DNA of 35,168 nt from Reyranella massiliensis 521 (lineage in GTDB: Bacteria; Pseudomonadota; Alphaproteobacteria; Reyranellales; Reyranellaceae), in the NCBI GenBank assembly GCA_945862125.1, contig CAMAYC010000043.1, positions 1-35,168 on the forward strand. The letters are read 5' to 3'. The position numbers were made by a program, and so were the translations under genes. Position 1 is the first letter of the stretch. Each line of letters begins with the position of its first letter. Under the pieces are notes generated by a model, which was given only the letters and a program-made list of their open reading frames with translations, did not search any database and had not been told where the DNA came from. Shown here piece after piece: positions 30,255 to 35,168 of this stretch.

Positions 30255-31775
30255 CTAAAGCTTCGTTCTGAGTTCGGTCTTGAGAATCTTGCCGTAGTTG
30301 TTCTTCGGCAAGGCATCCACGAACTTGTAATCCTTTGGCCGCTTGAAGCGCGCGATGTTGTCGAGGCAAAGGCGGTCGAGCTCGGCGGGCTTCACGCTCG
30401 CGCCCTGTCGGGGCACGATGAAAGCCACCACTTCCTCGCCCCACTCCGGATGCGGGCGGCCGACCACCGAACATTCGGCGACGGCGGGATGGAGGTTCAG
30501 CACGTCCTCGATCTCGCGCGGATAAATGTTGGAGCCACCCGAGATGATCATGTCCTTGGAGCGGTCCTTCAGCGTCAGGAAACCCTCCTCGTCGAAGGCG
30601 CCGACGTCGCCCGTCCACAGCCAGCCATTGCGCAACGAGCGTGCCGTGGCTTCGGGGTTGTTCCAGTAGCCCGACATCACCGTGTCGCCTTTGCAGATGA
30701 TCTCGCCGACTTCGCCGGTGGGGACTTGGCGTCCGTCCTCGTCGACGACGCGGACCTCCATGCAGGTGTCGGCGATGCCGGCCGAGGCGAGCCTCGCCTC
30801 CCAGCGCGGATGATCGCGCTCGGCGTGAAACTCCCGGCTGAGATGGGTGATCGTCATCGGGCTCTCGCCCTGGCCGTAGAGCTGCGTCAGCACGTTGCCG
30901 AGCAGGTCCATGGCGCGCTTGAGGTCGCTCACATACATCGGCGCACCGCCGTAGGTGATCAGCCGGAGCGCGCCGGGCTGCAGGTCCGCGGCACTGCTGT
31001 GCTCGACCAGGCGCTTCACCATGGTGGGCGCGAGAAAAATGCTGCAGTCGGGCCAGCGGTTCATGAGCTCGACCGTCTCAGGTACGTCGTAGTGGCCACT
31101 TTCGGGAAAGACCTGGACGACGCCGCGCGCCAGCATCGGGAAGTTCCACAGGCCGGAGCCATGGCTGATCGGGGCGGCATGCACGATCGAGCCGCCCGGC
31201 GGCGGCCGGTCGACGTCGGCATAGTAGTTGAGCGTCATCGCCAGCAGGTTGCGGTGCGTGAGCGTGGCGCCCTTGGGCCGGCCGGTCGTGCCCGACGTGT
31301 AGAACAGCCAGGCTGGGTCGGTGGGCTCGGCGTCGGCCATCGGGCCGGGATCGCCCACCGCCATGAAGCCATAGGCGCGCGTCGTGGTATCGACGATCTC
31401 CTTCAACGCAGATGCCTCGCGCGCCGCCTCGGCGATGGTGCCGGCGAGATCCGGGGTGACGAAGCAGAGCTTCGCGCCGGAATTCTCCAAGATGAAAGCG
31501 AACTCCTTGGCGTGAAGCTTGGCGTTCATCGGCACGGCGCAAAGGCCGGCATGCCAGATGGCGTACATGATCTCGATCGATTCGACGCAATTGGTCATGG
31601 CGAAGGCAACACGGTCGCCCTGAAGCAGGCCGAAGCGGCCGCGCAGGTGCGTGCTCATGACGGCAACCTTGCGCCAGAGATCGCGGTAACTGAGATGCGG
31701 CGAGGCCCCGCGCGCCAGGGCGGGCAGATCGCGGAACTCCCGGGAAGAACCGAGCAGCAGGTGGGCGATATTCAT
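30255..31775 (-). CDS. AMP-dependent acyl-CoA synthetase/ligase
   Basis: 506-residue adenylate-forming enzyme activating a carboxylic acid to its CoA ester. The AMP-binding P-loop is YTSGTTGRPKGATLTHRN. The core continues with GGAPM and YGQGESPMTIT, then the hinge region LWTGDVGAFDEEGFLTLKDRSKDMIISGGSNIYP. The C-terminal catalytic Lys is in NNYGKILKTELR. The start MNIAHLLLGSSREF at 31773-31775 is the first family-like Met; the frame from 31862 would overlap the divergent FAD gene. It is the first gene of an operon with the hydrolase and the DHA2 transporter. The acyl chain is undetermined. Confidence 0.93.
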   Translation of the reverse strand: MNIAHLLLGSSREFRDLPALARGASPHLSYRDLWRKVAVMSTHLRGRFGLLQGDRVAFAMTNCVESIEIMYAIWHAGLCAVPMNAKLHAKEFAFILENSGAKLCFVTPDLAGTIAEAAREASALKEIVDTTTRAYGFMAVGDPGPMADAEPTDPAWLFYTSGTTGRPKGATLTHRNLLAMTLNYYADVDRPPPGGSIVHAAPISHGSGLWNFPMLARGVVQVFPESGHYDVPETVELMNRWPDCSIFLAPTMVKRLVEHSSAADLQPGALRLITYGGAPMYVSDLKRAMDLLGNVLTQLYGQGESPMTITHLSREFHAERDHPRWEARLASAGIADTCMEVRVVDEDGRQVPTGEVGEIICKGDTVMSGYWNNPEATARSLRNGWLWTGDVGAFDEEGFLTLKDRSKDMIISGGSNIYPREIEDVLNLHPAVAECSVVGRPHPEWGEEVVAFIVPRQGASVKPAELDRLCLDNIARFKRPKDYKFVDALPKNNYGKILKTELRTKL

Positions 31776-31824
31776 GGCCGCCCGACTATTGCAGGCATGG
31801 CATCGACCTTGCAATGTGCGGCCC

Positions 31825-32973
31825 ATGCAGGATTTCGATTTCGCCATCATCGGCGCCGGCATTGCCGGGGTTTCCGCCGCCTATCATCTCGCCCCCCAGC
31901 TCGCATCGGGGGCCAAGGTGGTCGTCCTCGAGCGCGAGCATGTGCCGGCCTATCACACCACCGGCCGCTCGGCGGCACTGCATTCGGAGACCTATGGCAA
32001 CGCCTCGATCCGCGCCATCACCGTGGCCTCGGGCCGCTTCTACCGCCAGCCGCCACCGGGATTCACCGACCATCCGCTGCTCACCCCGCGCGGCGCGCTG
32101 ATCGCTGGCCACGCCGGGCAGGAGGCCGACCTCAAGAAGGCGGCTGCCGAGTATGCCCGCCTGGTGCCCAGCGTGCGCTGGCTCGACCCGGAGGAAACGC
32201 TGCGCCTACAGCCGCTGCTCAAACCCGAGGCAGCGGCGGGCGGGGCAATCTTCGAGCCCGAGGCCGACGACATGGACGTGGCCGCCATCCACGGCGGGTT
32301 CCTCAAGGGCGCGCGCGCGGCCGGCGGTGTGCTGCGCCTCAACGCCGAAGTCGTGGCGCTCGATCGCAAGGACGGGCGCTGGACCGTGAAGCTGCGCGAC
32401 GGCGAGTCGATCACGGCCGCCAACCTGATCAATGCCTCGGGCGCCTGGGCCGACGTGATCGGCGAGATGGCCGGCTGCGCGCCGATCGGCCTCGTGCCGA
32501 AGCGGCGCACCGCCTTCACCTTCGATGCACCTGAAGGTCTTGATCTGACCGATCTGCCGATGGTGATCGACTTCGACGAGAGCTTCTACTTCAAGCCCGA
32601 GGTCGGGCAGTTCCTGGGATCGCTGGCCGACGAGACGCCCTCGCCGCCCTGCGACGCCCAGCCCGAGGAGATCGACGTCGCCACCGCCGTCGACCGCATC
32701 GAGACCGCGAGCACGCTCACCATCCGCCGCATCAAGAACAAATGGGCCGGGCTGCGAAGCTTCGTCGCCGACAAGAGCCTCGTCGCCGGCTACGACCCCA
32801 GGGTGGAAGGCTTCTTCTGGCTGGCCGGCCAGGGCGGCTACGGCATCCAGACCGCTGCGGCGGCCGGACGGCTGGCCGCCGCGCTGGCGCTGGGCAAGGA
32901 GCTGCCGGCGGAAGTCGCCGAGCTCGGCGTCACCGAGGCCGCACTCTCCCCCGCCCGCTTCACGCGGCGGTGA
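31825..32973 (+). CDS. FAD-dependent amino acid/amine oxidoreductase (DAO/DadA family)
   Basis: 382-residue flavoprotein of the D-amino-acid oxidase fold. The FAD dinucleotide-binding motif is at the N-terminus (DFAIIGAGIAGVSAAYHLA), followed by VVVLEREHVPAYHTTGRSAA. The C-terminal FAD motif is FFWLAGQGGYGIQTAAAAGRLAAALAL. It resembles glycine oxidase and D-amino-acid dehydrogenase relatives; the substrate is not evident. The ATG 31825 (MQDFDFAIIG) is chosen because earlier in-frame codons lie in the 49-bp divergent spacer. The stop TGA lies within an inverted repeat just upstream of the bufferin-type operon. Confidence 0.88.
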   Translation: MQDFDFAIIGAGIAGVSAAYHLAPQLASGAKVVVLEREHVPAYHTTGRSAALHSETYGNASIRAITVASGRFYRQPPPGFTDHPLLTPRGALIAGHAGQEADLKKAAAEYARLVPSVRWLDPEETLRLQPLLKPEAAAGGAIFEPEADDMDVAAIHGGFLKGARAAGGVLRLNAEVVALDRKDGRWTVKLRDGESITAANLINASGAWADVIGEMAGCAPIGLVPKRRTAFTFDAPEGLDLTDLPMVIDFDESFYFKPEVGQFLGSLADETPSPPCDAQPEEIDVATAVDRIETASTLTIRRIKNKWAGLRSFVADKSLVAGYDPRVEGFFWLAGQGGYGIQTAAAAGRLAAALALGKELPAEVAELGVTEAALSPARFTRR

Positions 32974-33060
32974 TCGAACGATCACGGGGCATCGCCAAGC
33001 CCTGACTTCCCGGTGAGGACGCCTCGGCGCATGGTTGCGCCGTGGAGACGCCCCCGCGTC
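32970..33060. promoter_or_regulatory. Structured leader/operator region of the bufferin-type operon
   Basis: Three inverted repeats occur in 91 bp before the precursor gene. They are GTGATCG-AA-CGATCAC (32970-32985), CGGCGCA-TGGT-TGCGCCG (33025-33042), and GACGC-CCCC-GCGTC (33047-33060). The first, with a two-base centre, looks like an operator; the other two are short-loop hairpins likely in the mRNA leader. No canonical promoter boxes were recognised. Confidence 0.45.
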
Positions 33061-33092
33061 CTCCGCGACGGATCTCAACAAGGGAGCGAGAC

Positions 33093-33329
33093 ATGACCAG
33101 GAAGACCCTCATCGCCACCGCGACCGCCATCTTCGCCGCCGGCGCCTTCGCCACGTCGGCCGGCGCCCAGACGACCGTGAAGTGCGGTGGCACCAATTCG
33201 TGCAAGGGCACGAGCGCCTGCAAGTCCGGCGCGTCGGCCTGCAAGGGCCAGAATGCCTGCAAGGGCCAGGGCTGGACCGACGCCGCAAACGCCGGCGAAT
33301 GCACGGGCAAGGGCGGCAAGGTTCTCTAG
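33093..33329 (+). CDS. Secreted Cys-rich precursor peptide, BufA2-like bufferin
   Basis: 78-residue protein. Residues 1-25 are a Sec signal (MTRKTLIATATAIFAAGAF, cleavage after SAGA). The mature part has six cysteines at 31, 37, 43, 50, 56 and 70, mostly six residues apart, in CKG-x-x-A units: SCKGTSACK, SACKGQNACKGQGW. This matches the periplasmic bufferin-type metallophores, RiPPs in which a DUF692/MNIO enzyme converts cysteines into thiooxazole-type heterocycles for copper binding. DUF692 and DUF2063 genes follow directly, supporting the assignment. The ATG 33093 has GGGAG shortly upstream; the longer frame from 33042 is unsupported. Which cysteines are modified cannot be read from sequence. 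Confidence 0.88.
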   Translation: MTRKTLIATATAIFAAGAFATSAGAQTTVKCGGTNSCKGTSACKSGASACKGQNACKGQGWTDAANAGECTGKGGKVL

Positions 33330-33351
33330 GCTTCTCAGCCCCCTGAGAAGC
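33330..33351. terminator. Hairpin immediately after the bufferin precursor gene
   Basis: GCTTCTCAG-CCCC-CTGAGAAGC, a perfect 9-bp stem with a four-base loop starting at the first base after the stop codon. No T-run follows, so it is probably a partial attenuator or an mRNA 3' stabiliser that raises precursor over enzyme expression. Confidence 0.75.
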
Positions 33352-33353
33352 TC

Positions 33354-33381
33354 GGGCGTCCGGGAGAAATCGCGGACGCCC
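33354..33381. terminator. Second tandem hairpin between precursor and MNIO genes
   Basis: GGGCGTCCG (33354-33362) pairs perfectly with CGGACGCCC (33373-33381) across a 10-base loop, two bases after the first hairpin. It is followed by GTCCCCTTC and then the bufB ribosome-binding site, so it could also control access to that site. Confidence 0.7.
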
Positions 33382-33409
33382 GTCCCCTTCGAGGAGTAGA
33401 GTCGACCGC

Positions 33410-34243
33410 ATGTGCGCCGCCGCCGTGGATTTCGGCCTGGGCCTCCGGCCTGAGCATTACGAGGAGATCGCCGCCAGCCCCGGCCGGGTGAGCTGGTTCG
33501 AGGCGCTGTCGGAAAACTACATGGTCCCGGGCGGCAGCCCGCTCTACTGGCTCGACCTGATCCGCCGCGACTATCCGGTGGCGCTGCACGGTGTGTCGAT
33601 GTCGATCGGCTCGATCGATCCGCTCGACCTCGGCTATCTCGACGGCCTGAAAGCGCTCGCCGACCGCGTCCAGCCGATGTGGATCTCCGACCATCTCTGC
33701 TTCACCGGCCTGCGCGGTCTCAACATGCACGACCTGCTGCCGCTGCCCTACACCGGGGAAGCGCTTGACCATGTCGCCGAGCGCGTGAAGCGCGTGCAGG
33801 ACCACCTCGGCCGCCGCCTCGTGCTCGAGAACGTGTCGAGCTACGTCACCTATGCTGCCTCCGAGCTCAGCGAATGGGAGTTCATCGCCGAACTCGCCCG
33901 CCGCGCCGACTGCGATATCCTGCTCGACATCAACAACGTCTATGTCAGCGCCTTCAACCATGAATTCGACGCAAGCGAGTTCCTGCGCGCCATGCCGCGC
34001 GAGCGGGTGCGGCAGTTCCACCTCGCCGGCCACACCAACAAGGGCAGCCACATCATCGATACCCACGACCATCCCGTCGTGCCCGACGTCTGGGCGCTCT
34101 ATGCCGAAGCGGTAAAGCTCTTCCCCGGCGTGCCGACCATGATCGAGCGCGACGCCGATATTCCGCCCTACGAGGAGCTTCTGGCCGAGCTCGACGTCGC
34201 GCGCGGCATCGCCGCCGGCATCCCGCGTGAGGTTGCCGCATGA
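33410..34243 (+). CDS. bufB: DUF692/MNIO-family iron oxidative enzyme (BufB-like)
   Basis: 277-residue TIM-barrel enzyme of the multinuclear non-heme iron oxidative (MNIO, MbnB/TglH/ChrH) family, which modifies cysteines in peptide substrates using several iron ions. Likely metal ligands are His60 in LHGVSMSIGS, Asp94 and His95 in SDHLCF, His107, Glu140 in LEN, Asp173 in LDINN, His204 and His208 in FHLAGH, His219 and His221 in DTHDH, and Glu246 in IERD. All conserved blocks are present, so it should be active. The ATG 33410 lies 13 bases after GAGGAG, a rather long spacing. The 3' end overlaps the partner gene by ATGA. It is the maturation enzyme of the upstream Cys-rich peptide by context. 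Confidence 0.93.
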   Translation: MCAAAVDFGLGLRPEHYEEIAASPGRVSWFEALSENYMVPGGSPLYWLDLIRRDYPVALHGVSMSIGSIDPLDLGYLDGLKALADRVQPMWISDHLCFTGLRGLNMHDLLPLPYTGEALDHVAERVKRVQDHLGRRLVLENVSSYVTYAASELSEWEFIAELARRADCDILLDINNVYVSAFNHEFDASEFLRAMPRERVRQFHLAGHTNKGSHIIDTHDHPVVPDVWALYAEAVKLFPGVPTMIERDADIPPYEELLAELDVARGIAAGIPREVAA

Positions 34244-35037
34244 GCAGGGCAAATGCCGGCTCCCTGGGTGACCTGCAACGAGCCTTCCAGGATTACCTGG
34301 TCCGCGACAGCGAGGCCTTCGAGGCGGCAGTGCGCGACAGCAAAAAGGCCGACCGCGTCACGCTGCTCGACGTCTACCGCGACGGCTATGCGCTCCGCCT
34401 GATCGAGGTGCTGACCAACGACTATCCCGGCCTGATGGCGATGGCGGGCCCCGCCGATTTCGACCATGTGGCGCGGGCCTATATCGCGGCCCATCCCTCG
34501 CGCCATCCCTCGGTGCGCTGGTTCGGCGCAGGCCTGGCGGATTTCATGGACAGGACCGCGCCCTACAACAAGGCGCCGGCCGCCATCGAGATGGCGCGTT
34601 TCGAATGGGCATTGGGCGAGGCCTTCGATTCGGCCGACGTTGCCCCCATCGCCGCCGACGGGCTGCTGGCCCTGCCGCCGGAGGCCTGGGAGACGCTCAC
34701 TTTCACGGCCCTGCCCTCGCTGCATCGCTGCACCTTCGCCTTCGAGGTGGCGCAGGCCTGGCAGCGCCGCGACGAGGTCGAGCCCGGCAATCTCGAGGTC
34801 GCCCGCTCGGACGAGCCGGTCACCTGGGCGATCTGGCGGCCCGAGCGCATTTCCAGCTTCCGCTCGCTCGAGCCCGACGAAGCCGCGATGCTCGACGCGC
34901 TGGTCGCCGGCCGTACCTTTCCCGCACTCTGCGAGACGGTGGCCGCCTTCACCGGCGACGATCAGGCGCCCGCCCGCGCCGCCTGGCTGCTGCGCACCTG
35001 GGTCGAGGGCGGCATGATCGCGTCGTTCAAACACTGA
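34240..35037 (+). CDS. bufC: DUF2063 protein, MNIO partner (BufC-like)
   Basis: 265-residue protein with the DUF2063 N-terminal helical domain: LGDLQRAFQDYLVRD, LLDVYRDGYALRLIEVLTNDYPGLMAMAG and RAYIAAHPSRHPSVRWFGAGLADFM. A C-terminal alpha-beta domain beginning near residue 140 follows the pattern of MNIO partner proteins that recognise the precursor peptide. The ATG overlaps the bufB stop by four bases, so the two are made in a coupled manner. Its function as a peptide-recognition and complex partner is inferred from characterised MNIO systems. It is the last gene of the operon. Confidence 0.92.
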   Translation: MSRANAGSLGDLQRAFQDYLVRDSEAFEAAVRDSKKADRVTLLDVYRDGYALRLIEVLTNDYPGLMAMAGPADFDHVARAYIAAHPSRHPSVRWFGAGLADFMDRTAPYNKAPAAIEMARFEWALGEAFDSADVAPIAADGLLALPPEAWETLTFTALPSLHRCTFAFEVAQAWQRRDEVEPGNLEVARSDEPVTWAIWRPERISSFRSLEPDEAAMLDALVAGRTFPALCETVAAFTGDDQAPARAAWLLRTWVEGGMIASFKH

Positions 35038-35081: not shown

Positions 35082-35168
35082 GCCCGCTTGATGGAATTGG
35101 TAGACATACGAGACTTAAAATCTCGAGGCCGTAAGGCCGTGCTGGTTCGAGTCCAGCAGCGGGCACCA
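35082..35168 (+). tRNA. tRNA-Leu (anticodon UAA)
   Basis: The 87-base gene folds as a class II tRNA. The acceptor GCCCGCT pairs with AGCGGGC, with discriminator A and genome-encoded CCA at the last base of the window. The anticodon stem CGAGA/TCTCG (35109-35113, 35121-35125) encloses the loop CTTAAAA with anticodon TAA at 35116-35118. A long variable arm GGCC-GTAA-GGCC is present, and the T arm is GCTGG-TTCGAGT-CCAGC. The gene is complete. tRNA 3' ends are common integration sites; whether an element follows cannot be seen. Confidence 0.97.

Follow-up and report, generated by a model that had tools for sequence, protein, structure and literature searches.

A locus of the alphaproteobacterium Reyranella massiliensis 521 raises the question of what a small cysteine-rich peptide gene and the two genes behind it make, and whether their compact arrangement marks a special form of a known pathway. 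The window, by which we mean the whole 35,168-nucleotide stretch analysed here (contig CAMAYC010000043.1), carries these genes on the + strand in the order bufA2 (33093-33329), bufB (33410-34243) and bufC (34240-35037), a three-gene locus of the Buf2 bufferin type. Its identification as a Buf2 operon is firm, because the BufA2 and BufB models score above their cut-offs, the third protein has a DUF2063 domain, the metal-site positions of BufB are present and the predicted fold of BufC matches known partner proteins. We think it very probable that a Reyranella species here carries a canonical Buf2 bufferin operon, the copper role, hairpin and split-system steps discussed below included.

The peptide, the maturase and the gene order

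BufA2 is a bufferin precursor of 78 amino acids (AAs) with six cysteines; it matches NF050166 with 72.8 bits (NCBIfam cut-off 60) over model positions 3-78 of 79. Its N-terminus is signal-like by eye, with an n-region TRK, a hydrophobic stretch and AGA before Q26. The open reading frame is conserved among relatives and differs from that of the related locus L042 by 10 synonymous and 10 non-synonymous changes (pS 0.174, pN 0.057, the respective proportions per site), so it is not a chance frame, and the exported six-Cys peptide proposed in the initial annotation corresponds to a real gene. The cysteines lie at residues 31, 37, 43, 50, 56 and 70, with spacings of 6, 6, 7, 6 and 14; the "evenly spaced CKGxxA units" described there are thus roughly regular, but the first Cys is in CGG, the third in CKS and the last in CTG. 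The peptide is within the Buf2 norm in length and has six Cys as in its relatives (reported Buf2 members have six conserved Cys in 90% of cases and lengths of 51-367 AAs; PMC12452194). Since all six sit at positions standard for the family, the idea that they might carry a different modification pattern finds no support. The window peptide has no Pfam match at E up to 1, PF10048 (DUF2282, the Buf1 marker) included, and its sequence has no EGKCG motifs of the kind found in the oxazolin group.

At L057, L060, L061, L062 and L167 the BufA2-like peptides have five cysteines, with sequence of the SPAKG or SPGKG type in place of the fourth; the L057 peptide scores 59.2 bits, just below the BufA2 cut-off. 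These naturally occurring variants offer a way to tell which cysteines are needed. The BufA2 model had no match in the Caulobacter vibrioides control genome, whereas the DUF2282 model matched there; a Buf2 bufferin of C. vibrioides is mentioned in PMC12452194.

BufB is a multinuclear non-haem iron-dependent oxidative (MNIO, DUF692) enzyme by its matches to NF050167 (375.5 bits, NCBIfam cut-off 310) and PF05114 (361 bits, cut-off 25). It aligns with 3BWW, TglH and MbnB, the metal-site positions being common to MbnB, 3BWW and in part TglH. H60, H95, E140, D173, H204, D217, H219 and E246 are invariant in an 18-row alignment and shared with MbnB; these positions presumably include the iron ligands. 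The profile searches suggested in the initial annotation for BufA2, DUF692 and DUF2063 thus all return matches above cut-off (NF050166, NF050167, PF05114 and, for BufC, PF09836), and the ATGA overlap of the last two genes is seen at 34240-34243. Two details of its layout need correction: the genes begin at 33093, and the proposed operon start at 32970 falls at the end of an upstream oxidoreductase gene; and bufB does not follow the peptide gene directly, as an 80-base gap with two hairpins lies between them.

Is the three-gene form unusual? We compared 80 related loci centred on the MNIO gene, with flanks as fetched, several of which are clipped at contig ends. A bufA2 match lies upstream of the MNIO gene in 78 (L080 starts near a contig end, and none was found at L098). 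A DoxX profile seeded with this genome's two DoxX proteins had no match in the fetched flanks of 67 of the 80, some of them clipped in this way; DoxX adjoins the Buf2 operon in five (L057, L062, L103, L108 and L112, the last partial), lies about 2-3 kb upstream in three, and belongs to a neighbouring Buf1 cluster in five. According to PMC12452194, Buf2 clusters lack sigma/NrsF genes, and a comparable three-gene DUF2282-DUF692-DUF2063 operon, CC2907-CC2906-CC2905, is found in Caulobacter under the sigma factor SigF (PMC3511200). The absence of DoxX and sigma genes, taken in the initial annotation as the mark of a special minimal form, can therefore be set aside as such, and the three-gene form is the usual one among these relatives. 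Eight related loci have an MNIO at least 90% identical to BufB, five of them in Reyranella-named records, which include the two nearest (97% and 94%). Reyranella-like buf loci also occur at L043, L048 and L065 in records titled Rhizobium, Omnitrophota and Asaia, titles that may be wrong.

Predicted function

By analogy with characterised members of the family, the operon most likely makes 5-thiooxazole rings that trap periplasmic copper. BufC would bind the precursor and present it to the iron enzyme BufB, by which the central cysteines would be oxidised to 5-thiooxazoles while the peptide is still in the cytoplasm. Once modified, the peptide would leave through Sec and buffer excess copper in the periplasm. 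Thiooxazoles together with copper are reported for bufferins (PMC12452194) and for captophorins (PMC13097082). Weighing against this are that the Buf2 modification itself is reported as unidentified, with preliminary data in which its UV band and its mass loss per Cys equal those of Buf1 (PMC12452194), and that our literature search found no expression, mass spectrometry or copper results for this species (nor, among the papers searched, any that names both bufferins and Reyranella).

The main role might instead concern gold, cadmium, chromate or redox stress. The SigF operons of Caulobacter respond to chromate and cadmium (PMC3511200), gold induces the "gig" operons and some bufferins are fused to MerC (PMC12452194), and the promoter in the window is not of the SigF class (below). 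On the other hand copper binding has been reported for fontiphorin, for oxazolin and for the Buf1 bufferin (PMC13097082, PMC12452194), and SigF inactivation in Caulobacter severely affects growth in copper, whereas the sensitivity profile of the mutant for chromate and cadmium is similar; the SigF regulon there is copper-induced and the sigF mutant copper-sensitive (PMC8224329). We consider a main role other than copper unlikely. The operon is one more member of a large family of copper-defence peptides that was described only recently.

Hairpins between bufA2 and bufB

The gap between bufA2 and bufB folds well (z = -3.43 for 33320-33420) and contains two hairpins on the + strand. The first, directly after bufA2 (GCTTCTCAG/CTGAGAAGC, 33330-33351), comes from a computed fold, and a similar element follows the first bufA2 copy of the related locus L041. 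The second, before bufB (CGGGCGTCC/GGACGCCCG, 33353-33382), is conserved among relatives. Its pattern, GGGCGTCC-N4..20-GGACGCCC, has three sites in the genome (5.2 Mb), one after the window bufA2, one after a second bufA2 gene on contig C123 (below) and one at C87, and the reversed control pattern has none. Two of the three places being after bufA2 genes, we reject a genome-wide repeat, and we reject a known RNA family as well, since Rfam at gathering scores returned the window tRNA only.

An alignment of the second hairpin holds 25 of 31 loci; L063, L065, L066 and L074 were excluded because no clearly homologous hairpin was seen, and L064 and L067 were also not entered despite plausible hairpins. 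In L044, L048, L055 and L062 the hairpin was placed by hand (the automatic choice being another stem), and several others were trimmed by a few bases at the ends. Across the 25 rows 92.4% of cells are paired, against 39-50% when the alignment is slid, and both sides have changed in 4 of 10 pairs (shuffle mean 1.2, with the observed value reached in 6 of 500; slid versions 0-3). The covariation is tempered by one slid control with 3 such pairs against the 4 observed, and by the further pair types, which number 10 and were equalled in 78 of 500 shuffles. On these figures the stem is clearly conserved and its support from covariation is moderate.

We propose that the hairpin is a leaky terminator or a stabiliser of the mRNA; by partial termination or by protection of the 3' end it would probably lift the bufA2 message over that of bufBC. 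In L044 and L048 it is damaged where the second precursor is degenerate, which suggests, on these two cases, that it serves the precursor message. A point against this proposal is that the hairpin has no strong T tract and that a terminator scan found none, so a plain intrinsic terminator is rejected. T runs do follow the first-copy hairpins of L041, L042, L047 and L049. Stand-alone bufA2 loci (L132, L134-L138, L141, L142, L145, L146 and others) have no maturase in the fetched 5 kb, and in several of them the gene is followed by a hairpin of the GGGCGTCC type or by another G+C-rich one.

A second precursor, probably lost

An oxidoreductase gene is the upstream neighbour, as in the window, in 24 of the 80 MNIO loci, and 21 of these have two to four tandem precursors, single ones being found only at L054, L067 and L074. 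The MNIO tree groups the window with L041 and L042 (100/99), each of which has two copies. Window positions 33250-33480 align to L041 as two overlapping pieces, 2028-2157 (80%) and 2517-2644 (94.5%); the pieces overlap within the second hairpin, and the part of L041 that carries the second precursor (2158-2516) is missing from the window. From this alignment the window's second precursor was most likely lost by deletion between two hairpins, the conserved one marking the junction. An assembly fault is an unlikely cause, because the two hairpins are not identical.

The same loss could be read as part of a decaying locus, whose other genes may be poorly used. Second precursors are degenerate at L044, L048 and L050 and have four Cys at L069, and the hairpins of two of these loci are damaged, as noted above. 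The three window genes and the hairpin are however intact, and the MNIO gene differs from that of L041 by 11 non-synonymous and 41 synonymous changes (pN 0.017, pS 0.205), so we hold decay to be very unlikely. In this genus copies of the precursor seem to come and go rapidly, while the enzyme next to them is well conserved. Four tandem bufA2 genes precede one maturase at L051, L053, L059 and L034, and L019, L027 and L020 have nearly the same or identical peptides; the four-copy loci have two kinds of bufA2, one of 77-81 AAs with a C-terminal GGK segment and one of 74-75 AAs with a short basic tail.

The BufC partner protein

The DUF2063 identity given to BufC in the initial annotation is borne out by PF09836 (73.1 bits, cut-off 27.2) and by its AlphaFold model (mean pLDDT 93.5), which resembles TglI and NGO1945, so that its predicted fold is that of a known type of MNIO partner. 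Only three Foldseek matches have E of 0.001 or less, TglI 8hci_A (4.8e-7), TglI 8hi7_A (5.0e-7) and NGO1945 3dee (1.1e-5); the next are recognition elements of ribosomally synthesised and post-translationally modified peptides (RiPPs), and weak (E 0.1 and above). A sequence search of the PDB gave no match for BufC, and, as a point against the assignment, the NCBIfam HvfC model reaches 33 bits, far under its cut-off of 142. A duf2063 match accompanies the MNIO gene in 79 of the 80 loci, the miss (L075) being near a contig end. The Pfam title "Putative DNA-binding domain" and the description of NGO1945 in msrAB transcriptional regulation (PMC3511200) could suggest that BufC instead binds DNA and regulates the operon; this is the least probable of the alternatives, given this constant company and top fold matches to NGO1945 and to TglI, an enzyme partner in the TglHI crystals, ahead of the RiPP recognition elements (RREs).

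Promoter classes and a possible split system

The Caulobacter SigF site is GTAACC-N16-CGAA (PMC3511200). For promoter comparisons we added 40 loci, hand-picked among the BufA2 matches listed, and counted loci only once where their sequences around the start codon are identical. A GTAAC-N16-CGAA box lies 69-86 bases before the start codon in 18 of 19 bufA2 genes that have sigma and doxX genes beside them and no MNIO match downstream in the fetched sequence (among the matches listed; the exception is L156). In this class bufA2 stands opposite an ecf/nrsF pair and before doxX; in the tested examples the NrsF, sigma and DoxX assignments are borne out by Pfam. Elsewhere the box is found at both precursors linked to sigma and MNIO genes (L057, L061), at 3 of 126 other MNIO-linked precursors (L060, L062, L103), at none of 28 that are alone or cut and not at the single doxX-only one. 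The pattern alone is uninformative across the R. massiliensis genome, because it has 7 sites there against 13 for the reversed control; what gives it weight is that its distance from the sigma-linked genes, before which it lies, hardly varies. The window bufA2 has no such box in the 250 bases upstream, nor, with up to two mismatches, any site wholly within 32787-33092, and SigF control of the window operon is rejected. The earlier suggestion that this operon may be regulated differently has thereby gained support.

A candidate regulatory site of another kind, an operator-like box TCAC-N6-GTGA-N8-TCAC at 32960-32985 on the + strand, overlaps the end of the upstream coding sequence. A genome search for a regulon returned the window's own site only, and the reversed control also has one. 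The shorter form TCAC-N6-GTKA, chosen after viewing the data and counted in related sequences, lies upstream of 54 of the 90 distinct precursor genes left once identical regions were removed (0.25 expected from mononucleotide shuffles). By class it is present at 59 of 126 MNIO-linked precursors, 7 of 28 alone or cut, 1 of 2 with sigma and MNIO genes, and 0 of 19 with sigma and doxX genes.

The window genome has a second bufA2 gene of the sigma-linked kind (L008 1-2129, contig C123 of G000), with GTAACG-N16-CGAA at -86, followed by doxX and divergent from an extracytoplasmic function (ECF) sigma/NrsF pair; no maturase is seen before the contig end right after doxX, and relatives have eighteen similar loci among the matches listed. 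MNIO genes were found at two places in this genome, the window and a Buf1 operon at C94. PF10048 matches on C94 and on C253, where the contig end truncates a Buf1 (DUF2282) gene that is followed by doxX, with no MNIO between (L009 3065-3832); there may be a similar split for Buf1. Of 75 genomes of the family, 74 match the BufA2 model (53 of the 75 above the cut-off) and all 75 have an MNIO match, the weaker BufA2 matches probably including Buf1 cross-matches, as at C94. G051, a genome in one contig, has a single MNIO and, spread over two sites, three BufA2 matches; the drafts G049, G065 and G039 have one MNIO each and 5, 7 and 3 over-cut-off BufA2 places, one of them sigma-linked in each.

To judge from these sequences, Reyranella relatives often have extra bufA2 copies at separate sites under a stress switch of their own, and the Buf2 system looks split between a maturase locus without a SigF box and separate sigma-linked bufA2-doxX loci; the window would probably be the maturase-bearing half, and its BufBC would probably mature the C123 BufA2 in trans. 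A fuller scheme, to which we give an even chance, is that one BufBC pair serves several unlinked Buf2 precursors, the nrsF-ecf/bufA2-doxX sigma-F switch picks the peptide, the maturase is under another promoter and the hairpin sets the ratio of precursor to enzyme. Several points tell against a split: the C123 contig ends after doxX, so that this genome may have a maturase beyond it; the C123 peptide could also be a substrate of the Buf1 enzyme; and the 40 added loci were self-chosen, not random. A split layout would make it possible to see, in a natural setting, whether precursors can be matured in trans by one MNIO/DUF2063 pair. The sigma-F/NrsF genes beside Buf2 genes run contrary to the published summary (PMC12452194), and its description of Buf2 clusters as lacking sigma/NrsF genes therefore needs qualifying.

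Neighbouring genes

The upstream neighbour, which we do not claim as part of the operon, is an FAD-dependent DAO-type oxidoreductase gene (31774-32973, + strand; PF01266, 179 bits). Downstream, and not part of the operon, is a tRNA-Leu(taa) gene (35082-35168, + strand; ARAGORN and Rfam RF00005).

Comparison with known systems

The locus is a real and ordinary Buf2 operon; its lineage-specific loss of a precursor, its conserved hairpin and the apparently split regulatory arrangement within the genus are worth following. It resembles the described Buf2 clusters (NF050166; Buf_6/12Cys, PMC12452194) in its precursor (six Cys, a signal-like start and a similar length), its BufB-family MNIO, its DUF2063-RRE partner and its gene order. 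It differs from these clusters in its single precursor, against two to four in close relatives, and in a conserved hairpin before bufB.

The SigF regulon of Caulobacter is laid out in a parallel way, with a full operon CC3254-CC3257 (including DoxX) beside sigF/nrsF and the separate three-gene CC2907-CC2905, and its GTAACC-N16-CGAA promoter matches the box at the sigma-linked Reyranella bufA2 genes (PMC3511200, PMC8224329). The Caulobacter precursors are annotated as DUF2282, and both operons have a maturase and SigF promoters (PMC3511200, PMC8224329); Reyranella, in contrast, has a BufA2 precursor, a three-gene operon without the SigF box and a sigma-linked locus without a maturase in the sequence seen.

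The captophorins fontiphorin, oxazolin and gonophorin likewise depend on an MNIO plus a DUF2063 partner, and theirs make Cys-derived 5-thiooxazoles with a copper-related role (PMC13097082). Captophorins are Lys-Cys (EGKCG) peptides, whereas the window peptide is of the Cys-Lys (ACKG) type, and because FonBC left a substrate with the NACKG motif unprocessed (PMC13097082), Cys-Lys peptides such as this one probably need enzymes of their own.

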